A stretch of 64,000 nucleotides of DNA from an uncultured Draconibacterium sp. (lineage in GTDB: Bacteria > Bacteroidota > Bacteroidia > Bacteroidales > Prolixibacteraceae). The notes under the pieces were generated by a model, which worked only from the letters and a program-made list of their open reading frames with translations, was not told the origin of the DNA and searched no databases. The translations under genes and the position numbers were made by a program. This document shows, one piece after another, positions 2,921 to 62,153 of the stretch. The stretch is taken from NCBI RefSeq assembly GCF_963677155.1, contig NZ_OY781884.1, positions 2,248,134 through 2,312,133 on the forward strand, in the 5' to 3' direction. How positions within the stretch are numbered: position 1 is the first letter of the stretch; each line of letters opens with the position of its first letter.

Positions 2921-2944
2921 GCAAACGTCACCGCAAACGTTTGC
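2921..2944. promoter_or_regulatory. Tandem LacI-type operator sites upstream of susC
   Basis: A perfect 12-bp palindrome GCAAACGTTTGC at 2933-2944 is preceded 12 bp earlier by a half site GCAAACGT at 2921-2928. The centre CG flanked by AAA/TTT is typical of LacI/GalR operators. It lies about 175 bp before the susC start codon. The rest of the 2770-3118 gap holds no other gene; a promoter could not be assigned with confidence. Confidence 0.65.
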
Positions 2945-3118
2945 ACTGACGACCATGTTAAAAAACGTAATTTTCTCTTAACAATTGTTATACATTCGCT
3001 TTTGAATTTTAGCATTTGTTGAATACAAAGTCTCTGTAGCGAATTGATTTATTGCCTATTTTAATGAGTTAAAGAGAATTTAACAAACAGGAAAATTCAT
3101 AAACTAATAACATGTAAA

Positions 3119-6088
3119 ATGAGGATCATTCGTAAAAACCTTAAAGTTGTCTTGTTTTTGTTTGCCATGCTGAGCTTTAGTCTTGGTTATGCGCAGGTAA
3201 AAACAGTTACAGGTACTGTTAGCGATGCCGGTAACGGCGAGCCTTTACCTGGTGTTACCATTGTAGTTAAAGGAACTACACAAGGAACTATTACCGATTT
3301 TGACGGAAATTATAGCATTGATGTTGAAGAAGGGAAAACCATTGTTCTCTCATACATTGGTTATAAGCCACAAGAAGTAGTTATCACCGCTTCGAACCTG
3401 GTAAATGTAAAGTTGGAACAATCAGTGGAAAACCTCGATGAGGTTGTAGTAATTGGTTACGGACAAATTAGAAAAGGAGATGCTACCGGTTCCGTAGCAA
3501 CTGTATCATCTTCCGATTTTAACCAGGGATCAAGTAGTTCTCCACAAGATTTGATAACTGGGAAAGTGCCGGGAGTACATATCCAAACCGAAGGAGGAGC
3601 GCCAGGTTCTGCCGCAAAAATCCGTATTCGGGGAGGTTCGTCAATGACCGCAAGCAACGATCCACTGGTGGTAATTGACGGAATGCCGATTGATAATCGC
3701 ACCATAGACGGTATGAGCAACGTACTAACCTCGATAAATCCAAGCGACATTGAAACCTTTACTATCCTTAAAGATGCTTCGTCAACAGCCATTTACGGCT
3801 CTCGTGCATCTAATGGTGTTATATTAATAACAACAAAAAAAGGATTGAAAAACCAGCCGCTAAAAGTTGAGATCGGCTCTAAAGTAAGCATTAGCGAAAT
3901 TAAAGATTACATTGATGTATTAAATGCCGACCAGTACAGAGCACTGGTTAATGAAAGAGCTGCCATTACCTCGTCTATAAATCCTGACCTGTTAGGAAAT
4001 GCAAACACCGACTGGCAGGATGAAATTTACCAGACTGCCATAAGCCACGAGCATAACCTTGGCATATCAGGATCGCTGAAAGGAATTCCGGTACGCGCCT
4101 CGATTGGCTATACCGACCAATACGGTATTTTAAGAACCTCGTCGATGGAAAGGAAAACTGGAACGTTAAAAGTAAGTCCAAGCTTCTTTAACAACCATCT
4201 TTCAATTACTGCAGGCATAAAATATATGAACATTGATAACCGTTTTGCAGACAAAGGAGCCATAGGGGGTGCCCTTCGTTTCGACCCTACTCAGTCGGTA
4301 TTTAATAATACTGGAATATATGGTGGTTATACAACATGGCTTACCTCCGATGGTTCACGAAACATTAACGGAACTCGCAACCCTGTTGCCCAACTCCAAC
4401 AAAAAAGAGACATTTCGGATGTTGACCGCTACATAGTCGATGCACAGTTAGACTATAAATTACACTTCTTTCCCGATATTACTGCTACCGTTAAAGTTGG
4501 TTTAGACAATTCAAACAGTGACGGATATATCGATACCGACCTGGATGCATCGTGGGTACGTACAGCATCGTCGGGAGTTGCTCGCAACTATACTCAGGAA
4601 AGAAAAAACGAACTGTTCAATTTCTATCTGACATACAAAAAGAATCTGCCTGATAATAAAAGCATTTTTGATGTAATGGCAGGATATGAATGGCAACATT
4701 TCTGGTCGGCTGCTTCAGCCTACGAAGTTGACAGATTCAACACTGTAATGGAAAACTCAAAAGATGAAACAGAAAACTATCTGGTTTCGTTTTTTGGAAG
4801 AGCTAATTACACCTATAATGGCAAATACTTACTTACTGCTACCCTAAGAAATGATGGTTCATCGAAGTTTCATAAAGATAACCGTTGGGGTTTGTTCCCT
4901 TCGGCTGCTTTGGCATGGAGGATGTCGGAAGAGCCTTTTATTAAAAATTCAAACACCTTTAGTAATCTTAAATTAAGACTTGGCTACGGTATTACCGGCC
5001 AGCAGGATTTAAGTGATTACGATTTTCCATACCTTGGCATTTATCAATTAAGCGACACCCGAACTCAATATAAGCTGGGCGATAATTATTACACCTTAAT
5101 ACGACCCAATGGTTTCGACTCATCTATCAAGTGGGAAGAAACAACTACTTATAACCTTGGACTCGATTTTGGTTTCTTCGATAATCGCCTTACAGGTTCG
5201 GTTGATGTTTATAAACGCAAAACCAACGATTTGTTAAACGAAATTCCTGTTCCTGGAGGCACTAATTTTACCGATCTTTTAGTAACTAATGTTGGAGACC
5301 TTGAAAACAAAGGTATAGAAATTGCCTTAAATGCTACTCCTGTTTCAACAAAAGATTTAACATGGGAACTTAGTTTTAATTTTACTCGCAACAAAAACGA
5401 AGTTACCAAACTTACCAACTACGATGACCCTGATTACAGAGGTGTCGATGTTGGAGACATTAGTGGCGTTGGCGTTGGAAATAAAATCCAGAAGAATACT
5501 GTTGGTCATGCCTTAAATACTTTCTACGTTTACGAACAAGTGTACAACGATAACGGAAAGCCTATTGAAGGATTATATGTTGACAGAAACAGTGATGGCG
5601 AGATTAATGAAGATGACAAATACTTTGCAGAATCTCCGGCACCTGATTTCTTTATGGGCTTCTCTTCAATGCTTACCTACAAAAACTTCGACTTCTCTTT
5701 TAATGCGAGAGCAGCCATTGGCGGGCAAATCTACAACAACGTAATTGTTGGTGCACGCTACCAGGAGATGACCGTAAATGAATACCTGACTAACCTGCCT
5801 TCGGAAATCAATAACTCGAAGTTTACTACAGCACAGCAGTATTCCGATTATTTCCTGGAAGATGCATCTTTCTTAAAGGTCGACAATATTACACTAGGCT
5901 ATAACCTTCGTGATATCCTAAAAAGCTCATTGGGATTAGACTTCAATGCAAGGCTCTACGGTTCTGTTCAGAATGTATTTGTTATTACTGATTACTCAGG
6001 ATTAGATCCTGAGGTTAATAACGGTATAGACAACGACATTTATCCCCGTCCGAGAGTTTATCTGTTTGGAATGAACATTACCTTTTAA
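3119..6088 (+). CDS. SusC-like TonB-dependent outer-membrane transporter
   Basis: 989 aa with signal peptide (about 1-25, ending GYAQ), a carboxypeptidase-regulatory-like domain (about 27-110, VTGTVSDAGNGEPLPGVTIV), the LDEVVVIGYG segment typical of SusC/RagA, a plug domain (about 115-235, ending in the SNGVILITTKKG motif) and a large beta-barrel ending in aromatic F (LFGMNITF). It forms the gated outer-membrane pore that imports oligosaccharides with SusD as lid, energised by TonB-ExbBD. First gene of a susC-D-E-F-amylase series; SusD follows after 18 bp. Probable substrate is maltodextrin, inferred from the GH13 enzyme. Confidence 0.96.
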   Translation: MRIIRKNLKVVLFLFAMLSFSLGYAQVKTVTGTVSDAGNGEPLPGVTIVVKGTTQGTITDFDGNYSIDVEEGKTIVLSYIGYKPQEVVITASNLVNVKLEQSVENLDEVVVIGYGQIRKGDATGSVATVSSSDFNQGSSSSPQDLITGKVPGVHIQTEGGAPGSAAKIRIRGGSSMTASNDPLVVIDGMPIDNRTIDGMSNVLTSINPSDIETFTILKDASSTAIYGSRASNGVILITTKKGLKNQPLKVEIGSKVSISEIKDYIDVLNADQYRALVNERAAITSSINPDLLGNANTDWQDEIYQTAISHEHNLGISGSLKGIPVRASIGYTDQYGILRTSSMERKTGTLKVSPSFFNNHLSITAGIKYMNIDNRFADKGAIGGALRFDPTQSVFNNTGIYGGYTTWLTSDGSRNINGTRNPVAQLQQKRDISDVDRYIVDAQLDYKLHFFPDITATVKVGLDNSNSDGYIDTDLDASWVRTASSGVARNYTQERKNELFNFYLTYKKNLPDNKSIFDVMAGYEWQHFWSAASAYEVDRFNTVMENSKDETENYLVSFFGRANYTYNGKYLLTATLRNDGSSKFHKDNRWGLFPSAALAWRMSEEPFIKNSNTFSNLKLRLGYGITGQQDLSDYDFPYLGIYQLSDTRTQYKLGDNYYTLIRPNGFDSSIKWEETTTYNLGLDFGFFDNRLTGSVDVYKRKTNDLLNEIPVPGGTNFTDLLVTNVGDLENKGIEIALNATPVSTKDLTWELSFNFTRNKNEVTKLTNYDDPDYRGVDVGDISGVGVGNKIQKNTVGHALNTFYVYEQVYNDNGKPIEGLYVDRNSDGEINEDDKYFAESPAPDFFMGFSSMLTYKNFDFSFNARAAIGGQIYNNVIVGARYQEMTVNEYLTNLPSEINNSKFTTAQQYSDYFLEDASFLKVDNITLGYNLRDILKSSLGLDFNARLYGSVQNVFVITDYSGLDPEVNNGIDNDIYPRPRVYLFGMNITF

Positions 6089-32416: not shown

Positions 32417-33337
32417 TTAATCCTGGTTTGCAGGAACACTCTGCAGGCTTTCCCCTGTTTCCGCATTCGCCTTATAATGCCGCTTTTTCCAGTGTTTTTT
32501 TAGTACTCCTGTATGCAAGTGTGCATCTGTTGGAAACATGAAGTCTACGCTGCGGTGAGGCCGTTTGTTGTTGTATTTGTACACCGCAACTTTTGTGGCT
32601 TCAAGCGCTTCCCGATAATCAGAAAATGTATGGTTTAAATCGTATTCGTCCTTTAAAATCCCATTAACCCTTTCGGCTATTGCATTTTCGTACGGATCGC
32701 CGTTTTCGGTCATCGAGATATTTATTTTCGAGCCCTTCAGAAAGTTCACATAGTCGTTACAACAGTATTGTATCCCCCGGTCAGAATGATGGATGAGACC
32801 TTGTTTCACTCCCTCGCCTGCAACTGCCATACGCAAGGCGTTTAATGCCCCTTCGCTGGTTAAATCGGGCCAGAGGCACCAGCCTACTATCTTCTTCGAA
32901 TAGGCATCGGTTACCAGTGAAAGGTAAACAAAGCCTTTTTCGGTGCGGATATAGGTAATGTCGCTCACCCATAAGCGCCCTGAGCTGAGTAGTTCTATCT
33001 CCCGGATCAGGTTGGAATATTTACGGTAAAAATGGTTCGAATTCGTGGTTTTAGGTCCTCTTCTTTTACGTTTTACCAATAAACCGTGTTCGCGCAAAAG
33101 GTAGTAGAATTTGTCACGTCCATATTTAATATTATGGTCCTGTAACTGCGGCGCTATCAAATGATGGAGCTTCTCGGCCCCCATGCGAGGGTGATCCCCA
33201 CGCAGCTCTTTTACCAATGTTAATATAAATACTTCCTGCATTTGAAGCCCCGACTGGCGCTTTTTGCTGTCGTACCAGGCCTGACGGCTAAACCCAAACA
33301 GTCCGCACAGTACCGCTTTGCTTGTTAGCGGGTACAT
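32417..33337 (-). CDS. IS3-family transposase OrfB (DDE)
   Basis: 306 aa. N-terminal HTH_21 region (VLTLVKELRGDHPRMGAEKL-like) then rve integrase core: D in WVSDITYIRTEKGF, D in IHHSDRGIQYCC and E in NAIAERVNGILKDEY, the DD(35)E triad. It is probably made mainly as an OrfAB fusion of 446 aa by -1 frameshifting at 33370-33376; the frame is open upstream of its ATG into the orfA overlap. Confidence 0.93.
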   Translation of the reverse strand: MYPLTSKAVLCGLFGFSRQAWYDSKKRQSGLQMQEVFILTLVKELRGDHPRMGAEKLHHLIAPQLQDHNIKYGRDKFYYLLREHGLLVKRKRRGPKTTNSNHFYRKYSNLIREIELLSSGRLWVSDITYIRTEKGFVYLSLVTDAYSKKIVGWCLWPDLTSEGALNALRMAVAGEGVKQGLIHHSDRGIQYCCNDYVNFLKGSKINISMTENGDPYENAIAERVNGILKDEYDLNHTFSDYREALEATKVAVYKYNNKRPHRSVDFMFPTDAHLHTGVLKKHWKKRHYKANAETGESLQSVPANQD

Positions 33338-33351
33338 GTGCGTTAGTACAC

Positions 33352-33756
33352 CTACTGCTTGGGGCCAGACTTTTTTCTGATCTCGAGTTTGTAGTCGTTC
33401 TCGGCAATGTCGATCATGGTGTTCAGCGCAACGTTTTTCATTTGCGCCAGTTCCAGCTGCTTCTCCAGCTCTTTGATGCGTTTTTCCAAGGCCTTGTTAT
33501 CTGCTCTTTCTTTTGAACTCATAGACTGCAAAGATAAGTGGATTTCGTCGGAATATTTGACTTGCCAGTGCTTGTACGTCTTATCAAATCGATGTGGTAA
33601 ATTAAATTTTTCACGAGCTTCAGTCACACTCATCCGTCCGGAATCAAGTTCGGCTATTAACCAACGCCGAAAACTGGTCTCGTAATTACTGTAATCTACT
33701 TTTTTCTGATTAAAACCTTCCATATTATCCGAAAGGTTAGTGCTGATTTTTTTCAT
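33352..33756 (-). CDS. IS3-family OrfA (HTH/leucine zipper)
   Basis: 134 aa. HTH region (MSVTEAREKFNLPHRFDKTY) and a C-terminal leucine zipper (LEKRIKELEKQLELAQMKN). Binds the IS ends and acts with OrfB. Its last codons contain the A AAA AAG slippery heptamer. Confidence 0.9.
   Translation of the reverse strand: MKKISTNLSDNMEGFNQKKVDYSNYETSFRRWLIAELDSGRMSVTEAREKFNLPHRFDKTYKHWQVKYSDEIHLSLQSMSSKERADNKALEKRIKELEKQLELAQMKNVALNTMIDIAENDYKLEIRKKSGPKQ
33370..33376 (-). other. Programmed -1 frameshift site of the IS3 element
   Basis: On the minus strand the orfA frame reads AGA AAA AAG, giving the classical A_AAA_AAG slippery heptamer. Slipping back one base leads through KVWPQAVGVLTH into orfB without a stop, giving a 446-aa OrfAB. 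Frame arithmetic agrees with -1. Confidence 0.85.
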
Positions 33757-34195: not shown

Positions 34196-34480
34196 ATTGC
34201 AAAATGTTTTATGGTTTATAACTATAATTCCGGGGCCACCTGTAAGCTTTCGACGGCACAGGTGGCCTTTTTCGTATGCACGCCAGCGTTCTGTAATGGC
34301 GTGTACATGCTAGCCCTGTAGCATGTGATCGGATCGATGTTAAAATTTTACGGTAATTTCAGAGAATTCTGGATTAACCGTGCTTTTGGTTTCTAACGTG
34401 TATAAAATTATGGAAAATGTACTTGGTTGTCAATATGTTACGTAGCAGGGGCGACAAGCATTGGTGCAGAATGATTTTAC

Positions 34481-34570
34481 ATCACCACCTCACCAGCTGC
34501 GCTGATCCTCCCGACGCTCGCTTTGCTCGGTCGGGACAGGCTCTTCTCCTTGAAGGAGGAGAAATTTGGG
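34481..34570. repeat. CCTCC-type palindromic repeat, inverted copy
   Basis: Opens CACCACCTCACCAGC and closes CTCCTTGAAGGAGGAGAAAT, the complement layout of the family seen around the DUF559 gene. The 75 bp after it (34561-34635) are nearly identical to 38573-38647, showing that a larger unit was duplicated. Confidence 0.75.
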
Positions 34571-34670
34571 CAGTAGTTGAATTGGAAGACAGAATTTAAT
34601 TTGTAGCACAAGTTTTAGCTGTGCTGATTTTCAATTTCCGGAATACCAATTAAGCCAATAGCACGAAAAT

Positions 34671-34748
34671 TCCCCTCCTGTCAGGAGGGGTGGCAGCGAC
34701 ACCTGATTTGCCATGAAATTTTAATACCCATTCGCTGACGGGGTGGTG
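34671..34748. repeat. CCTCC-type palindromic repeat, direct copy
   Basis: Palindrome CCCCTCCTGTCAGGAGGGG at 34672-34690, then a variable part and the closing GACGGGGTGGTG. Same family as 38721-38776 and 61887-61934. Confidence 0.78.
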
Positions 34749-34779
34749 TTTATTTCTACTTGCATTATTATTTTAAAAC

Positions 34780-34817
34780 TACCACCTCACCAGCTGCGCT
34801 GGTCCCCTCCTCCTGTG
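34780..34817. repeat. CCTCC-type repeat interrupted by IS copy 1
   Basis: ACCACCTCACCAGCTGCGCT then CCCCTCCTCCTGTG, continuing at 36383 after the insertion as GAGGAGGAGAAATAAATG. Removing the IS and one target copy restores a hairpin CTCCTCCT-GTG-AGGAGGAG. Confidence 0.75.
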
Positions 34818-36382
34818 CTACCCTTTATACACAAATATACGTTCTTTGATTTATTGTTGAGCTAACATTTTATTGTTGATAAAACATTGCCTAACTATCA
34901 GTAATACAGTGCTTTAATCTTGCAGGCTCTGACAATTATCACTATCTTAAAGTCGTGATAGTCAGAGAGTTTAAGAGGTTCTTCGATGGATTTCTCCCAG
35001 ATATCCGAATCGAAAAACGAGCCAATAAAATTATGTCAGATATGCTTACCTTCGGTAAAGTTACTGTCAATAAATTTTGTACAACGAATACCGAAAAGAT
35101 AGGAGCATATCGTATGTTTGGGAATAATAGTTTCAGCCATTTTGAATTAACAGAAGGTGTAGTTTCTAATTGTAAAGCCAACCAAGGTTCTACTCATCTT
35201 CTTTGTATCCAGGATACAACAGAGTTTAACTTTACCAGCCACCTACAACGGATTGGGAAAAAGGACAAGGATATTGGTCCGGTAACAAAAAATGATAATG
35301 CAGGTTTCTTTTGCCATCCGATGTTGGTGATAAACGAAAAGGATAAACTGCCTATCGGCTTGTCAAGCATTGATTTGTGGAACCGCAACTGGGACAAACA
35401 AGATAAATTTGAACGAAGTTATTGGAAACAAGATATCACAGAAAAGGAATCATACCGCTGGATTGAAAGCGCCCGAAAAACAAAATCTGTTTTAGACAAA
35501 GCACCAATGTTAACTGTTATCGGAGACAGGGAGTCTGATATTTTTAGTGAGTTTGTCCTTATCCCAGAAGAACGCACACACTTGCTCGTGCGTTCAAGAA
35601 TAAACCGAAAATTGGCAGGAGAGGATGTGAAACTTTATGAAAAGTTATCGCAACAGGAACAAAAAGCTGTTTACGATTTAGAAATTAAAGGAAATAAAAA
35701 ACGAAAAGCCCGGACAGCAAAAATGTCCTTAAAATATGTAAAGCTTAAAATAAAAAGGCCAGAAAAACTACATGATAAGAATCTTCCTGAATATGTTGAA
35801 TTATGGGCTATTGAAGCCCGTGAACAGCCAAAGACAGTGCCCAGAGCAGAATCTCCAATAGTTTGGAGGTTATTGACTACGCACCCAATAACAGAGGTTG
35901 ACCATGCAATGAAATGTTTGGAGTGGTACGGTAACAGGTGGTTTATTGAAGAACTCTTCAGAATAATGAAAAGTAAAGGCTTTGAGCTTGAAGCCTCACA
36001 GCTTGAAACCGGTGCTGCATTAAAGAAACAGGTTGTTATGGCACTTCAGGTTGCATTAACAATAATGGTGCTTAAATTATCGCTCAACAAGAAAGAAGCA
36101 TTAAACGCTGAACTGATATTTAACCAACAGCAAATAGAGTTTATAGAGTTATTACTAAAAAATGAAATAGAAGGAAAAACGAAAAAACAACAAAACCCAT
36201 ATCCCTCCAGAAGTTTAGCATGGTGTGCATGGGCAATAGCCCGGCTTAGTGGCTGGAGCGGATATAAGTCTCATGGCCCACCAGGCTACATATCAATGAA
36301 AAATGGACTTGATACCTTTAATACTAAATATGAGGGATACCTTGTCGCAATGAAGTTCTTAAAAGATGTGTATAAAGGGTAG
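34818..36382 (+). mobile_element. IS4-family (IS50-like) insertion sequence, copy 1
   Basis: 1565 bp with perfect 16-bp terminal inverted repeats CTACCCTTTATACACA / complement. A 9-bp target duplication CCTCCTGTG lies at 34809-34817 and 36383-36391. The transposase stop codon is the last base triplet of the right end. The target is the loop of a CCTCC palindromic repeat. Sequence appears identical to copy 2. Confidence 0.93.
34955..36382 (+). CDS. IS4-family transposase (Tn5/IS50-like), copy 1
   Basis: 475 aa, GTG start. N-terminal Tn5-type DNA-binding region (FCTTNTEKIGAYRMFGNNSF), catalytic D in CIQDTTEFNFT, second D in VIGDRESDIF, and the YREK motif Y-GN-R-WFI-E-ELFRIM-K with the catalytic Glu. 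Cut-and-paste transposase. The C-terminal codons VYKG and the stop are encoded by the inverted repeat. Confidence 0.95.
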   Translation: MIVREFKRFFDGFLPDIRIEKRANKIMSDMLTFGKVTVNKFCTTNTEKIGAYRMFGNNSFSHFELTEGVVSNCKANQGSTHLLCIQDTTEFNFTSHLQRIGKKDKDIGPVTKNDNAGFFCHPMLVINEKDKLPIGLSSIDLWNRNWDKQDKFERSYWKQDITEKESYRWIESARKTKSVLDKAPMLTVIGDRESDIFSEFVLIPEERTHLLVRSRINRKLAGEDVKLYEKLSQQEQKAVYDLEIKGNKKRKARTAKMSLKYVKLKIKRPEKLHDKNLPEYVELWAIEAREQPKTVPRAESPIVWRLLTTHPITEVDHAMKCLEWYGNRWFIEELFRIMKSKGFELEASQLETGAALKKQVVMALQVALTIMVLKLSLNKKEALNAELIFNQQQIEFIELLLKNEIEGKTKKQQNPYPSRSLAWCAWAIARLSGWSGYKSHGPPGYISMKNGLDTFNTKYEGYLVAMKFLKDVYKG

Positions 36383-36391
36383 CCTCCTGTG

Positions 36392-36467
36392 AGGAGGAGA
36401 AATAAATGTATTTCATACTTTGAAGTAACAAACAAGTCTGGGAGCACGAAAGTTTCCCCTCCTGCCA
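36392..36467. repeat. Repeat DNA between the two IS copies
   Basis: 76 bp: the tail of the interrupted inverted repeat (AGGAGGAGAAATAAATG) and the head of the next direct repeat (GAAAGTTTCCCCTCCTGCCA). It resembles 38655-38735, so it is original host repeat DNA and not IS sequence. Confidence 0.65.
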
Positions 36468-38032
36468 CTACCCTTTATACACAAATATACGTTCTTTGAT
36501 TTATTGTTGAGCTAACATTTTATTGTTGATAAAACATTGCCTAACTATCAGTAATACAGTGCTTTAATCTTGCAGGCTCTGACAATTATCACTATCTTAA
36601 AGTCGTGATAGTCAGAGAGTTTAAGAGGTTCTTCGATGGATTTCTCCCAGATATCCGAATCGAAAAACGAGCCAATAAAATTATGTCAGATATGCTTACC
36701 TTCGGTAAAGTTACTGTCAATAAATTTTGTACAACGAATACCGAAAAGATAGGAGCATATCGTATGTTTGGGAATAATAGTTTCAGCCATTTTGAATTAA
36801 CAGAAGGTGTAGTTTCTAATTGTAAAGCCAACCAAGGTTCTACTCATCTTCTTTGTATCCAGGATACAACAGAGTTTAACTTTACCAGCCACCTACAACG
36901 GATTGGGAAAAAGGACAAGGATATTGGTCCGGTAACAAAAAATGATAATGCAGGTTTCTTTTGCCATCCGATGTTGGTGATAAACGAAAAGGATAAACTG
37001 CCTATCGGCTTGTCAAGCATTGATTTGTGGAACCGCAACTGGGACAAACAAGATAAATTTGAACGAAGTTATTGGAAACAAGATATCACAGAAAAGGAAT
37101 CATACCGCTGGATTGAAAGCGCCCGAAAAACAAAATCTGTTTTAGACAAAGCACCAATGTTAACTGTTATCGGAGACAGGGAGTCTGATATTTTTAGTGA
37201 GTTTGTCCTTATCCCAGAAGAACGCACACACTTGCTCGTGCGTTCAAGAATAAACCGAAAATTGGCAGGAGAGGATGTGAAACTTTATGAAAAGTTATCG
37301 CAACAGGAACAAAAAGCTGTTTACGATTTAGAAATTAAAGGAAATAAAAAACGAAAAGCCCGGACAGCAAAAATGTCCTTAAAATATGTAAAGCTTAAAA
37401 TAAAAAGGCCAGAAAAACTACATGATAAGAATCTTCCTGAATATGTTGAATTATGGGCTATTGAAGCCCGTGAACAGCCAAAGACAGTGCCCAGAGCAGA
37501 ATCTCCAATAGTTTGGAGGTTATTGACTACGCACCCAATAACAGAGGTTGACCATGCAATGAAATGTTTGGAGTGGTACGGTAACAGGTGGTTTATTGAA
37601 GAACTCTTCAGAATAATGAAAAGTAAAGGCTTTGAGCTTGAAGCCTCACAGCTTGAAACCGGTGCTGCATTAAAGAAACAGGTTGTTATGGCACTTCAGG
37701 TTGCATTAACAATAATGGTGCTTAAATTATCGCTCAACAAGAAAGAAGCATTAAACGCTGAACTGATATTTAACCAACAGCAAATAGAGTTTATAGAGTT
37801 ATTACTAAAAAATGAAATAGAAGGAAAAACGAAAAAACAACAAAACCCATATCCCTCCAGAAGTTTAGCATGGTGTGCATGGGCAATAGCCCGGCTTAGT
37901 GGCTGGAGCGGATATAAGTCTCATGGCCCACCAGGCTACATATCAATGAAAAATGGACTTGATACCTTTAATACTAAATATGAGGGATACCTTGTCGCAA
38001 TGAAGTTCTTAAAAGATGTGTATAAAGGGTAG
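36468..38032 (+). mobile_element. IS4-family (IS50-like) insertion sequence, copy 2
   Basis: 1565 bp, same orientation and, as far as read, same sequence as copy 1. Its own 9-bp target duplication CTCCTGCCA is at 36459-36467 and 38033-38041, so it is a separate insertion and not a tandem duplication. The restored target is the hairpin CTCCT-GCC-AGGAG of another copy of the same repeat family. Confidence 0.93.
36605..38032 (+). CDS. IS4-family transposase (Tn5/IS50-like), copy 2
   Basis: 475 aa, identical in translation to the copy at 34955. Same GTG start, D-D-E residues and YREK motif, with the stop inside the right inverted repeat. Identity implies recent transposition. Confidence 0.95.
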   Translation: MIVREFKRFFDGFLPDIRIEKRANKIMSDMLTFGKVTVNKFCTTNTEKIGAYRMFGNNSFSHFELTEGVVSNCKANQGSTHLLCIQDTTEFNFTSHLQRIGKKDKDIGPVTKNDNAGFFCHPMLVINEKDKLPIGLSSIDLWNRNWDKQDKFERSYWKQDITEKESYRWIESARKTKSVLDKAPMLTVIGDRESDIFSEFVLIPEERTHLLVRSRINRKLAGEDVKLYEKLSQQEQKAVYDLEIKGNKKRKARTAKMSLKYVKLKIKRPEKLHDKNLPEYVELWAIEAREQPKTVPRAESPIVWRLLTTHPITEVDHAMKCLEWYGNRWFIEELFRIMKSKGFELEASQLETGAALKKQVVMALQVALTIMVLKLSLNKKEALNAELIFNQQQIEFIELLLKNEIEGKTKKQQNPYPSRSLAWCAWAIARLSGWSGYKSHGPPGYISMKNGLDTFNTKYEGYLVAMKFLKDVYKG

Positions 38033-38041
38033 CTCCTGCCA

Positions 38042-38102
38042 GGAGAGCCTGTCCCGACTTTTCGTCGGGAGGAGTACCGCGTTTACAGCGGTGGGGTGGT
38101 TG
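38042..38102. repeat. CCTCC-type repeat left of the DUF559 gene (interrupted by IS copy 2)
   Basis: Continuation of a direct copy that starts at 36446: GGAGAGCCTGTCCCGAC, hairpin, GGGAGGAGTACCGCG ... CAGCGGTGGGGTGGTTG. The motif order GAGTACCGC ... CAGCGG ... GGTGGT is mirrored by the inverted copy at 38513-38579. Confidence 0.75.
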
Positions 38103-38138
38103 ATGTTCTTTAGCAGAATCATTAACTTTAAACAAAAA

Positions 38139-38588
38139 ATGCAACTCCACAACCGCAAGTTTTACAAACCATTACGTAAACATTTACGCAATCATTCAAC
38201 TGCTGCCGAAGCCACGCTGTGGAAAATGCTAAAGAAGCGTCAGATTGGCGGATATAAATTCCGGCGGCAACATTCTATTGGTAAATATATTGTTGATTTC
38301 TTTTGTTACGAGCTAATGTTGGCCATTGAGTTAGATGGTGAGGTACATGCCGATTTAAATGGTATTGCACGAGACATGGAAAGGGATGAGCAATTAAATA
38401 AACTGGGAGTAACAGTGTTGCGCTATGAAAACCGTTGGGTATATGAATATCCGGAGGTGATAAAACAGGATATTCTTGAATTTGGTGAAAAAAGAAGTAA
38501 GGAGGAGAGATTTCACCACCTCCCCGCTGATTCCACTGCGTTTCATCAGCGGTACTCCTCCTCGAAGGAGGAGAAATTTGGCCGGTAG
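38139..38588 (+). CDS. DUF559 (Vsr-like) endonuclease-domain protein
   Basis: 149 aa from ATG at 38139 (an upstream frame to 38016 translates repeat and IS DNA). The DUF559 core covers about residues 10-115: RNHSTAAEATLWKMLKKRQI, GYKFRRQHSIGKYIVDFFC, AIELDGEVHADLN and VLRYENRWVYEYPEVIKQDI. The fold is related to Vsr/PD-(D/E)XK nucleases; D in VDFFC and E/D in IELDGEVH are candidate metal ligands. The final 27 or so residues are translated from the flanking palindromic repeat, which supplies the stop codon. It is bracketed by inverted copies of that repeat. Role unknown; involvement in spread of the repeat is a hypothesis. Confidence 0.88.
   Translation: MQLHNRKFYKPLRKHLRNHSTAAEATLWKMLKKRQIGGYKFRRQHSIGKYIVDFFCYELMLAIELDGEVHADLNGIARDMERDEQLNKLGVTVLRYENRWVYEYPEVIKQDILEFGEKRSKEERFHHLPADSTAFHQRYSSSKEEKFGR
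38513..38579. repeat. CCTCC-type repeat right of the DUF559 gene (inverted copy)
   Basis: TCACCACCTCCCCGCTGA ... TCAGCGGTACTCCTCCTCGA then AGGAGGAGAAATT. It is the reverse-complement layout of the left flank and overlaps the 3' end of the nuclease gene. Confidence 0.78.
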
Positions 38589-38720
38589 TTGAATTGGAAG
38601 ACAGAATTTAATTTGTAGCACGAAATTTAGCTGTGCTGATTTTCAATACCTCTTCTCAAAGGAGGAGAAATAAATGTATTTCATTTCATACTTTAAAATA
38701 GCAAACAAGCCTATAGTACG

Positions 38721-38776
38721 AAAATTTCCCCTCCTGTCAGGAGGGGTGTATCCGCCATCGGCGGATGGGGTGGTTA
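38721..38776. repeat. CCTCC-type palindromic repeat, direct copy
   Basis: AAAATTTCCCCTCCTGTCAG, GAGGGGTGTATCCGCC, ATCGGCGGATGGGGTGGTT. A short half copy (CTTCTCAAAGGAGGAGAAAT) at about 38650 faces it. Confidence 0.78.
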
Positions 38777-55712: not shown

Positions 55713-56015
55713 ATGAGAGACCATAATTATTTCGTTTACATTGTTACAAACAAAAACAAGACTGTTCTCTATATTGGAGTTACAAACGATTTACAAAGAA
55801 GAGTTTATGAACATGAAAACGGATTAATACCAGGATTTACTAAAAAATACAATTGCCATTTTCTCATTTATTACGAACATTTTCAAAATATTGATGATGC
55901 TATTGTCAGGGAAAAGGAAATAAAGAAATGGAGAAGAGAGAAAAAAGAAAACCTGATAAGTGAAACTAATCCTAATTGGAATTTTTTGAATACTCAAATC
56001 TATGATGCGTTGTAG
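55713..56015 (+). CDS. GIY-YIG nuclease-domain protein
   Basis: 100 aa. GIY-YIG core at the start: FVYIVTNKNKTVLYIGVTND (the GIY equivalent is VYI, the YIG is YIG), catalytic Arg in DLQRRVYEHENG, then VREKEIKKWRREKKENLI and a C-terminal NPNWNFLN typical of the UPF0213/YhbQ-like bacterial family. ATG at 55713. It sits between the glycyl-radical enzyme and its activase and is bracketed by inverted copies of a dispersed repeat, which suggests it arrived as a unit. Small single-domain nuclease; role unknown. Confidence 0.9.
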   Translation: MRDHNYFVYIVTNKNKTVLYIGVTNDLQRRVYEHENGLIPGFTKKYNCHFLIYYEHFQNIDDAIVREKEIKKWRREKKENLISETNPNWNFLNTQIYDAL

Positions 56016-58862: not shown

Positions 58863-58940
58863 CACATTTTATTAACAATAAAAAAAGATTACCTATTTTT
58901 CGCTAAATTGGGGCTTCGTAAAAAAAAAGAACCTATTACT

Positions 58941-61900
58941 ATGAATGTCTCCGAATATTTAGCCGTACTTAACAATCGTTTTCAATCGGGCATATCAAGC
59001 GAACATACCTATCGTGGCGATTTGGAAAGCCTTATCCGCAGCTTGGTTACCGAAGTGGAAATTACCAACGAACCATCGAAAGTTACCGATTGCGGAAACC
59101 CCGACTATGTAATTACAAAAGGCAAAATACCCGTAGGTTATATCGAAGCCAAAGACATTGGCAAAGACCTGAACCACAAACAATACAAAGAACAGTTTAC
59201 CCGCTATAAAAATGCGCTCGATAACCTGATAATTACCGATTACCTCTGGTTTCAGTTTTTTAAAGAGGGCGAACTGGTACACGAAATACGTATTGGCGAA
59301 ATTGACGGGAACAGCATTAAACCACTGCCCGAGAACTTTACCAATTTCGAAAACCTTGTACGCGATTTTTGTACCTATGTGGGGCAAACCATTCGCTCGG
59401 GTAAAAAGCTGGCCGGTATGATGGCGGCCAAAGCACGCCTGTTGCAAAATATTGTTGAACGGGCACTTACTGCCGACAACGAAAACGACGAAAACTCAAC
59501 GCTTAACGATCAGTACGAATCGTTTAAAAACATACTGATACACGACCTCACGCCAAAAGGTTTTGCCGATATTTATGCGCAAACGCTGGCTTACGGAATG
59601 TTTGCTGCGCGTTACCACGACCAAACGCCCGAAGACTTTAGCCGTTACGAGGCTGCCGAGTTAATACCCAAAACCAATCCTTTTCTGAAAAAGCTGTTTA
59701 CCTACATTGCCGGACCCGATATCGACGAACGGATAAAACGCACGGTTGATAACCTCGCGCTGGTTTTTAGGGCGGTAAACCTCGACGCGCTGCTGCATAA
59801 CTTTGGCCGAAGCACACAAACCCACGACCCCATTATTCATTTTTACGAAACCTTTTTGGCCGAATACGATGCCAAACTACGCAAAGCGCGTGGCGTTTGG
59901 TACACGCCCGAGCCGGTGGTGAATTTTATTGTGCGTGCCGTTGACGATATCCTGAAAACCGAGTTCGATTTGCCACAAGGATTGGCCGATACCGCAAAAA
60001 CAAAAATAAAAGTGCCCGTGCAGGGAAGTAAAAAAATGCAGGAGCTTGAGGTGCACAAAGTACAGGTACTCGACCCCGCTACCGGAACAGGTACTTTTTT
60101 GGCCGAAGTGGTAAAGCACATTTATCACAGCAAATTTAAAAGTATGCAGGGTGCCTGGAGCGCTTATGTCGATGAGCACCTTATTCCGCGCCTCAACGGT
60201 TTCGAGCTGCTAATGGCCTCCTACGCCATGGCACACCTAAAACTCGATATGCTGTTGCACGACACCGGCTACAAATATTCTCCTGCCTCAGCTAAGGGGC
60301 TTGCAGCACGCAGTGGTCAACAGCGTTTTAACATTTACCTTACCAACAGCCTCGAAGAACACCACCCCGACACCGGCACCCTTTGGGCCAACTGGCTAAG
60401 CACCGAGGCCAACGAAGCCAACCACATAAAACGCGATACACCCGTTATGTGTGTTATTGGTAACCCGCCGTATTCGGTTAGCAGCACCAATAAATCAGAA
60501 TGGATACAAGGCCTGTTGAAAGATTATAAGAAAGACTTGAATGAAAGGAAAATAAACCTGGACGATGATTACATAAAGTTTATACGGTTCGGGCAGCATT
60601 ATATTGAGAAAAATGGCGAAGGCATATTAGTATATATATCTAATAATAGTTTTATTGATGGAATTACGCATCGACAAATGCGAAAAAGTTTATTAGAGAA
60701 TTTTGACAAGATTTATATCTTGGATTTGCACGGTTTTGCCAAACTGAAGGAAATTTCTCTTGTGGCGGACAAAGATGAAAATGTATTTGATATCCAACAA
60801 GGTGTAAGTATAAATATCTTTGTTAAAACGAGTAAGAATAAGAAGCAGAATGCTTGTTCGTTACATTATTTTGAGAAATATGGAAGTCGTCAAGAAAAAT
60901 ATGACTTCCTCAATAGCAATTATTTAAAAAATATTAATTGGAAAAGTCTGCATCCGATTGAGCCATATTTCTTTTTTGTTGAAAAGGATTTTTCCGAACA
61001 GTCTAGTCATAATGAAGGATTTAAAATTACCGATTTATTCACAGCTTCAAACTCTGGCATAAAAACAGACCGAGATAAATTATTCTATGATTTAAATAAA
61101 GAAGAGTTAGACCGTAGGTTTAGAACACTTCTTTCAGAGGAATTAACTCCTTCATTTGTTGAAGAATATTCAGTTAAAGATTCTGGTAGTTACAAAATTA
61201 CTTCTGCAATCAAAAAAGTAAAATTCGAAGAAAAGAACATTCAAAGCAGCTGTTACAGACCATTCGATAAATATTATACTTATTACGACCCGCAATTAAT
61301 TAGCAGACCGGCACAAAAAGCAATGGTTCATTTTAATGGTCACAGAAATATTGGTCTTGTACTGGGAAGGCAAGGGCAAGTTATCGGTCATATGCAATGG
61401 AATTTAGTTTATTGTATTAACTCTTTAGCTGACTATAATATATTTTATCGTGGTGGTGGATATGTTTTCCCTTTGTATTTATATCCAGACAATAAAGGTC
61501 AACAAACCATAGACCAGCAACAAGAGCGTAAACCCAACTTAAACCCCAAAATAGTACAGCAAATAGCCAAAGCCACCGGCCTAACGTTTACGCCCGAGGT
61601 AGACACTTCGACTTCGCTCAGTGTGACAGACACCTTTGCGCCCATCGATATTCTCGACTACATTTATGCGGTGTTACATTCGCCCACCTACCGCACCAAA
61701 TACAAGGAGTTTCTGAAAATTGATTTTCCGCGTGTACCATACCCTAAAAACACCGAAACCTTTTGGAAGTTGGTTAAACTGGGTGGAGAATTGAGGCAAA
61801 TCCATTTGCTCGAAAGCCCAAAGATAGAGCAGCCCATTACCACTTACCCCGAGGCCGGAACTAACGAGGTAGAAAAACCACAGTTCAAAATTTCCCCTCC

Positions 61901-62153
61901 TGGTCAGGAGGGGTGTCCGCAGGACGGGGTGGTTGGCCAAGTATACATTAACAGCACCCAGTATTTTGCCAACGTGCCGCAAAGTGCCTGGGAATTTTAC
62001 ATTGGCGGCTACCAGCCCGCCCAAAAATGGCTAAAAGACCGTAAAGGTCGCACACTAACATTCGAAGACATTATGCACTACAAAAAAATAATTGTCGCCA
62101 TCACCGAAACCGGCCGGTTAATGAAAGACGTTGATAATTTAGAGCTAGAATGA
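58941..62153 (+). CDS. Type IIG/ISP-like restriction-modification enzyme (N6-adenine methylase plus nuclease)
   Basis: 1070 aa from ATG at 58941; an upstream TTG frame is discounted. N-terminal PD-(D/E)XK-type nuclease region about 54-72 (GNPDYVITKGKIPVGYIEAK). A helical linker leads to a methyltransferase with motif I LDPATGTGTFL at about 377 and motif IV GNPPYS at about 507, as in N6-adenine enzymes. The C-terminal half would be target recognition. No helicase domain is seen, so it is closer to type IIG than to true type ISP. Two dispersed repeats lie in frame at about residues 888-896 and 983-998. No separate specificity subunit is nearby. Confidence 0.9.
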   Translation: MNVSEYLAVLNNRFQSGISSEHTYRGDLESLIRSLVTEVEITNEPSKVTDCGNPDYVITKGKIPVGYIEAKDIGKDLNHKQYKEQFTRYKNALDNLIITDYLWFQFFKEGELVHEIRIGEIDGNSIKPLPENFTNFENLVRDFCTYVGQTIRSGKKLAGMMAAKARLLQNIVERALTADNENDENSTLNDQYESFKNILIHDLTPKGFADIYAQTLAYGMFAARYHDQTPEDFSRYEAAELIPKTNPFLKKLFTYIAGPDIDERIKRTVDNLALVFRAVNLDALLHNFGRSTQTHDPIIHFYETFLAEYDAKLRKARGVWYTPEPVVNFIVRAVDDILKTEFDLPQGLADTAKTKIKVPVQGSKKMQELEVHKVQVLDPATGTGTFLAEVVKHIYHSKFKSMQGAWSAYVDEHLIPRLNGFELLMASYAMAHLKLDMLLHDTGYKYSPASAKGLAARSGQQRFNIYLTNSLEEHHPDTGTLWANWLSTEANEANHIKRDTPVMCVIGNPPYSVSSTNKSEWIQGLLKDYKKDLNERKINLDDDYIKFIRFGQHYIEKNGEGILVYISNNSFIDGITHRQMRKSLLENFDKIYILDLHGFAKLKEISLVADKDENVFDIQQGVSINIFVKTSKNKKQNACSLHYFEKYGSRQEKYDFLNSNYLKNINWKSLHPIEPYFFFVEKDFSEQSSHNEGFKITDLFTASNSGIKTDRDKLFYDLNKEELDRRFRTLLSEELTPSFVEEYSVKDSGSYKITSAIKKVKFEEKNIQSSCYRPFDKYYTYYDPQLISRPAQKAMVHFNGHRNIGLVLGRQGQVIGHMQWNLVYCINSLADYNIFYRGGGYVFPLYLYPDNKGQQTIDQQQERKPNLNPKIVQQIAKATGLTFTPEVDTSTSLSVTDTFAPIDILDYIYAVLHSPTYRTKYKEFLKIDFPRVPYPKNTETFWKLVKLGGELRQIHLLESPKIEQPITTYPEAGTNEVEKPQFKISPPGQEGCPQDGVVGQVYINSTQYFANVPQSAWEFYIGGYQPAQKWLKDRKGRTLTFEDIMHYKKIIVAITETGRLMKDVDNLELE
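61604..61628. repeat. Short palindromic repeat inside the restriction gene
   Basis: ACACTTCGACTTCGCTCAGT then GTGACA: arms ACACT/AGTGT with a purine-pyrimidine loop. This kind of element is normally intergenic; here it is translated as about EVDTSTSLSVTDT. Confidence 0.55.
61887..61934. repeat. CCTCC-type palindromic repeat inside the restriction gene
   Basis: AAAATTTCCCCTCCTGGTCA then GGAGGGGTGTCCGCAGGACG and GGGTGGTT, the same family as 34671, 38721 and the flanks of DUF559. It is in frame, translated as KISPPGQEGCPQDGVVG. Confidence 0.8.

Follow-up and report, generated by a model that had tools for sequence, protein, structure and literature searches.

Introduction

Repetitive extragenic palindromic sequences (REPs) of the GTAG kind, including REPINs, are accompanied by RAYTs (REP-associated tyrosine transposases, or TnpA-REP), which are Y1 HUH enzymes. 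Here we analyse a 64,000-nucleotide stretch of an uncultured Draconibacterium sp. genome (contig NZ_OY781884.1, positions 2,248,134 to 2,312,133; hereafter the window), in which the gene for a DUF559 nuclease is surrounded by palindromic repeats. Both systems comprise short palindromes in inverted doublets, and in both the enzyme gene is flanked by repeats and copies lacking the gene are dispersed. The enzymes differ: DUF559 is a PD-(D/E)XK nuclease of the Vsr/EDxHD fold, whereas RAYT is a Y1 HUH transposase. In addition, the DUF559 repeats have pyrimidine and purine arms, and DUF559 blocks are also positioned in frame in host genes. Because their enzyme is not a Y1 transposase, the DUF559 elements are not members of the REP/RAYT system, although they appear to work alike. 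The initial annotation of the window had likened its layout to REPs with a RAYT; the likeness is apt, and occupied and empty sites are found.

Other described systems share single features with the locus. By fold, the nearest solved functional relatives of DUF559 are the EDxHD homing endonucleases (I-Bth0305I). Rickettsia palindromic elements place palindromes in frame within protein genes, as the DUF559 blocks do, and we know of no nuclease gene inside them. The CGTC REPs are palindromic doublets of alpha-proteobacteria and Bacteroidetes, defined by a CGTC tag at one end and a CCA tail and, according to Di Nocera et al. 2013 (PMC3733652), without a dedicated transposase. By that description they resemble the DUF559 repeats, and some of them may be the same. 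In a ShiLan-type case, PMC11855218 describes a nuclease gene in a phage methylase gene, with no splicing domain and a stop-free host frame. DUF559 is likewise inserted in host genes without a splicing domain, but the ShiLan-type HNH nuclease, as described there, is out of frame, whereas DUF559 keeps to the host frame and has palindromes close to its edges. Searches of an open-access library gave no title or abstract linking DUF559 with repeats.

We propose, with moderate confidence, that stand-alone DUF559 proteins act as homing-type nucleases, moving together with a palindromic repeat family and helping to spread it.

Linkage of DUF559 genes to hairpins

Of 92 non-redundant DUF559 genes, 78 have a hairpin with a C/T arm (stem at least 6) no more than 250 nt away, compared with 16 of 586 control open reading frames (ORFs), and such hairpins are present on both sides of 40/92 genes and 0/586 controls. 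With a stem of at least 7, the numbers are 72/92 on one side or more and 34/92 on both sides (controls, 7/586 and 0/586). Among plasmid-record representatives, 18 of 20 have a hairpin and 7 of 20 have hairpins on both sides. The density per 500 nt is 0.84 beside the DUF559 gene and 0.00-0.05 farther away. In addition, inverted similarity between the two flanks exceeds the controls' 99th percentile at 28/80 DUF559 loci (controls, 6/548), and the upper quartile of direct flank-to-flank similarity is 81, compared with 20 for controls. The comparison shows that gene and hairpin are tightly and specifically linked in several phyla. The initial annotation had suggested looking for flanking repeats at all DUF559 genes of Bacteroidota and would have been refuted had most of them lacked such repeats; most of the stand-alone genes tested do have a flanking palindrome.

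DUF559 matches occur in 171 of 296 genomes of the window's phylum. The sample comprises 80 stand-alone DUF559 loci among the matches listed for the 296 genomes, with most contig-edge places and the last few entries left aside, and 34 further loci; plasmid-record loci (22 of 40 records hit) represent alpha-, beta-, and gamma-proteobacteria, cyanobacteria, and Deinococcota. Because the stand-alone list ends at E ~1.5e-29, the sample holds too few of the weaker DUF559 proteins. Three truncated or broken loci (L140, L161, and L162) were dropped before the hairpin count, and clustering at 70% identity gave 95 representatives, of which 3 lack full flanks and 92 were counted. All control ORFs were taken from the Bacteroidota loci or the window genome. 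Two plasmid-collection records, NZ_CP119142.1 (L168, 2.2 Mb) and NZ_OL790696.1 (L169, 4.8 Mb), look like mislabelled chromosomes. Some DUF559 genes lie near draft contig ends (L041, L044, L047, L079, L101, and L103), which is expected if they are repeat-flanked; no control count was made.

On a common measure (a hairpin of stem at least 7 no more than 450 nt from the profile match), 14/15 DUF559 loci score, compared with 0/29 for Vsr, 0/23 for GIY-YIG, 1/40 for Y1 transposases, and 5/159 random places. Short loci were excluded, which left 15 of 16 for DUF559, 29 of 30 for Vsr, and 23 of 30 for GIY-YIG; the 40 Y1 loci were hand-picked among the matches listed, mainly from DUF559- or repeat-rich genomes. 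The result bears on the idea that DUF559 is a Vsr-like host repair or restriction nuclease and that the hairpins serve as regulatory or terminator structures or as the fragile sites on which it acts. Hairpins of this kind are absent at the Vsr genes examined, and the rarity of hairpins at control ORFs speaks against the same idea and disfavours plain terminators. Moreover, the positions in LeuS, MetH, and HsdR, and presence or absence between related genomes, misfit a fixed repair gene, and PADLOC gives no match, a defence role having been checked in no other way. We consider this explanation very improbable.

The two other DUF559 genes of the window genome were read by eye. CCTCC-type palindromes flank the first on both sides (L001). 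The second (L003) stands among tandem units of another palindrome family (900-1860); these units contain apparent 5' and 3' pieces of DUF559 genes, like internally deleted genes, and are candidate non-autonomous derivatives. In Draconibacterium orientale (L132), two tandem DUF559 copies (2014-2466 and 2938-3390) lie ~0.9 kb apart with repeats between them.

Repeat number and DUF559 copy number

As a genome-wide measure, we use the log2 ratio of CCTCY..RGAGG hairpins to a reversed control in the 296 genomes. The median is -0.34 in the 170 genomes without a strong DUF559 hit, -0.02 in the 34 with one copy, -0.10 in the 35 with two, 0.18 in the 37 with three or four, and 0.59 in the 20 with at least five. 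The Spearman correlation of the ratio with copy number is 0.38, a value reached in none of 5000 within-family permutations. By this comparison, genomes with more DUF559 genes tend to have more repeats. The initial annotation had also proposed a count of repeats in genomes with and without the gene, and its second refuting condition, a repeat number unrelated to the gene, does not hold either: the excess rises with DUF559 copies, within families and with Y1 controlled for.

Alternatively, a RAYT or another transposase could move the palindromic doublets, with DUF559 as cargo caught between two units. Composite blocks of unit, gene, and unit would form in that way. Y1 transposases are present in 210 of the 296 genomes, and their counts correlate with those of DUF559 (0.41) and, before correction, with the repeats (0.18). 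However, the partial correlation with the repeats is 0.34 for DUF559 and 0.03 for Y1, so that the repeat excess is independent of Y1, the sole transposase class compared, once DUF559 is accounted for. In addition, hairpins lie beside just one of the 40 Y1 genes, one cargo family would recur at 78 of 92 loci, and the DUF559 fold is a homing endonuclease fold. Given the hairpin count at Y1 loci and the partial correlation, Y1/RAYT as the mobiliser is unsupported, and we regard the cargo explanation as unlikely.

Occupied and empty sites

In Sinorhizobium sp. K101, a 720-bp block (GCCCCTCACCC...GGGTGAGGGGC) consisting of a doublet, a DUF559 gene, and a second doublet is positioned between two genes. 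The same two genes are adjacent without the block in Shinella sp. PSBB067; either state may be the older one. Sinorhizobium sp. K101, M103, and C101 are near-identical at the block and, together with S. meliloti Ak57 (93%), are counted as one event. In Sphingomonas parapaucimobilis, DUF559 genes lie between sufB and sufC and between transhydrogenase genes. Gene-less pieces of units are scattered, for example across the Sinorhizobium replicons, and doublets that lack the gene are probably non-autonomous. These sequence comparisons give good support for a mobile repeat-gene-repeat block.

Among the matches listed, 34 DUF559 places lie in open frames of at least 600 aa, and at all 12 such places for which loci were taken the domain is inside a larger protein (hosts in Table 1). 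On the left of the domain, 11/12 have a hairpin no more than 250 nt away, and on the right 7/12 do. In MetH, residues 456 and 628 of the query align to the adjacent residues 90 and 91 of methionine synthase (3bul), and in LeuS, residues 293 and 449 align to residues 236 and 243 of 1h3n. HsdR has one insertion site in L010 and a different one in L012, L017, and L026, and each site is free of DUF559 in the other group. The comparison shows in-frame DUF559 blocks in host genes that are unrelated to one another and have block-free relatives. DUF559 differs from the EDxHD homing endonucleases in being a stand-alone, palindrome-flanked gene of ~120-150 aa, and ten large-frame proteins have no Pfam match to an intein (Hint) domain at E ≤ 1e-4 (introns were not searched for).

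The HsdR site shared by three genomes resembles homing, and DUF559 might cut sites in host genes, not repeats, with the palindromes as mere ends or hitch-hikers. However, several unrelated genes and the intervals between genes of operons hold insertions as well, one HsdR relative has a different site, and gene-less units are dispersed. Site-specific homing alone is therefore improbable in our judgement.

The HsdR of L026 also holds an in-frame GIY-YIG domain (residues 251-317) at a site separate from DUF559, with a TGCGTG..CACGCA inverted repeat immediately to its left (by eye). GIY-YIG matches are multi-copy in the window genome (5, including L204 and window 55713-56015), and one has an adjoining palindrome with 18-bp arms, CCTTCGACTCCGCTCAGG. 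Further nuclease families may have palindromes of their own.

The window locus

Three repeat units (A, C, and B) surround the DUF559 gene of the window (Table 1). Each is an inverted doublet that starts near ACCACC, finishes near GGTGGT, and is built from CCTCC..GGAGG hairpins, whose left arms are pyrimidine and right arms purine. Units A and B are 92% identical across 93 shared nt. The dispersal of the repeat described in the initial annotation holds: when up to 3 mismatches are allowed, GAAGGAGGAGAAATTT is matched 9 times in the window, compared with 1.0 expected, and 9 is reached in 0/100 shuffles. So does the presence of a distant copy inside another gene; this gene encodes 1081 aa, and the copy is in frame in it. 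Unit A, with 7 matches, is a low-copy repeat in the window genome, where exact AGGAGGGGTG occurs 7 times (reversed controls, 2).

Table 1 Features of the window and large-frame hosts of DUF559 domains.
Feature	Position or locus	Strand	Remarks
Repeat unit A	~34478-34752	+	Inverted doublet ACCACC..[CTCC..GGAG]..spacer..[CCCCTCCTGTCAGGAGGGG]..GGGGTGGT
Repeat unit C, left part	34777-34817	+	Final bases are the target duplication CCTCCTGTG
IS4-family element, copy 1	34818-36382	+	Transposase ORF 34955-36382; at apex of unit C left hairpin; family assigned via identical copy 2
Repeat unit C, middle part	36383-36467	+	Between the two elements
IS4-family element, copy 2	36468-38032	+	ORF 36605-38032; at apex of unit C right hairpin; target duplication CTCCTGCCA
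Repeat unit C, right part	38033-38104	+	Adjoins DUF559 gene
DUF559 (Vsr-like PD-(D/E)XK) nuclease gene	38139-38588	+	Pfam match, alignments, structure model
Repeat unit B	38514-38776	+	Overlaps 3' end of DUF559 gene; contains its TAG stop
Half unit (AAATTTCCCCTCCTGGTCAGGAGGGGTGTCCGCAGGACGGGGTGGTT)	61888-61934	+	In frame in ORF 58908-62153
LeuS	L006, L009
HsdR	L010, L012, L017, L026
HsdM	L025
DNA methylases	L004, L005, L007
MetH	L013
GATase_5 protein	L020		DUF559 at its end

Unit C (34777-38104) is split by two identical 1565-bp insertion sequences of the IS4 family with 9-bp target duplications, both at the apex of CCTCCTG-type hairpins. The initial annotation overlooked them, as it did the in-frame insertions. 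It placed the left repeat copy near 36446; a repeat is present there, but it is the middle of the split unit, whose right part is the one that adjoins the gene. In that part, GGGGTGGTT ends at 38101, 37 nt upstream of the ATG. The insertion sequences are unmatched at the syntenic locus of Draconibacterium sediminis (L130) and in Maribellus sediminis (L134), where synteny consists of the left neighbour gene and DUF559. The element has 9 copies in the genome (L121-L129), 8 of them at apices of palindromes of two repeat families (by eye). To the left of the repeat cluster lies an rve-type transposase gene with a small adjoining ORF (32417-33756, minus strand), which we take to be IS3-like. The apex position of the IS4-family element is like that of ISRm22 in S. 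meliloti REPs; insertion of ISRm22, also of the IS4 family, at the REP axis is already known (PMC1525189).

The gene call itself stands: the product matches PF04480 (DUF559) with E 8e-30 and 103.3 bits, compared with a curated cut-off of 20.6, and the Vsr profile (PF03852) is absent among its Pfam matches at E ≤ 0.001. The protein has the EDxHD/Vsr catalytic fold; the solved structures nearest to it by fold are those of an uncharacterised DUF559 protein and of the homing endonuclease I-Bth0305I, with Vsr next. The conserved domain stops near residue 121, and residues ~122-149 are mostly repeat-derived. In accordance with the initial annotation, the right repeat copy supplies the stop: the last ~27 residues and the TAG are read from unit B through loss of the usual stop (six relatives, L130-L135, end at 120-126 aa). 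In the protein model, residues 127-129, 131-143, and 147-149 have a predicted local distance difference test score (pLDDT) below 50. PHROGs gives two weak matches to families of unknown function, and Rfam gives just two sub-threshold matches (E 0.21 and 0.27).

Discussion

In the fullest form of the proposed element, the nuclease gene would lie between two repeat units, each of them an inverted doublet whose hairpins pair a pyrimidine arm with a purine arm. The nuclease would nick or cut at the hairpin or a matching site, on one strand or both, and repair would then copy the block into a new place. Gene-less doublets would be non-autonomous derivatives, amplified in trans by the same nuclease. 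The DUF559 protein as the driver of block mobility, like its site and mode of cleavage and the mobilisation of doublets in trans, is what we infer.

Several points weigh against this proposal. The support is comparative and includes no observed cutting, binding, or transposition. For a Caulobacter DUF559 protein, PMC12907096 proposes a role in Vsr-like mismatch repair. No qualifying hairpin is present at 14/92 loci, and 52/92 lack one on at least one side; L003, one of the 14, fails the base-composition threshold only, and its hairpin is detected with a looser one. The log2 ratio exceeds 0.5 in just 38/126 genomes with strong DUF559 hits (best E ~1e-15 or lower, large-frame hits included) and also in 9/170 genomes without, and the Y1 counts, too, correlate with the repeats before correction. 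In the window genome, the generic hairpin is barely in excess (66, compared with 57 in controls). The hairpin tail faces the gene merely as a tendency (55 vs 33, p 0.025). Covariation of tail and stem, first suspected by eye (for example in L090), is not borne out, as stems are matched hardly better by their own tails than by the tails of other loci (4.67 vs 4.57, sd 0.06). The similarity of proteins and repeats is correlated with rho 0.19 within genomes, which is not significant (117/2000 permutations as high), and with rho 0.19 between genomes, where pairs are non-independent.

The initial observation at the window is confirmed as real, and its interpretation is supported in part. A 'domesticated' system, which it had also offered, is not favoured because the copies are many and diverse and lie within genes unrelated to one another.

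In its broadest form, to which we give about even chances, the proposal is that a pan-bacterial class of mobile elements is founded on DUF559 nucleases; hairpin doublets would be copied through genomes, together with the nuclease gene, by a homing nuclease of the Vsr fold instead of a transposase. Such nucleases could be the missing mobilisers of REP-like repeats that lack a transposase, and insertion in essential genes would be tolerated via palindromes that keep the frame open. DUF559 is a common nuclease family of unassigned function, and its link to repeats gives a testable mobiliser candidate for some such repeats. If true, the proposal would account for DUF559 domains inside LeuS, MetH, and HsdR, and many proteins annotated as 'endonuclease domain-containing' would be selfish elements, not repair or restriction enzymes.
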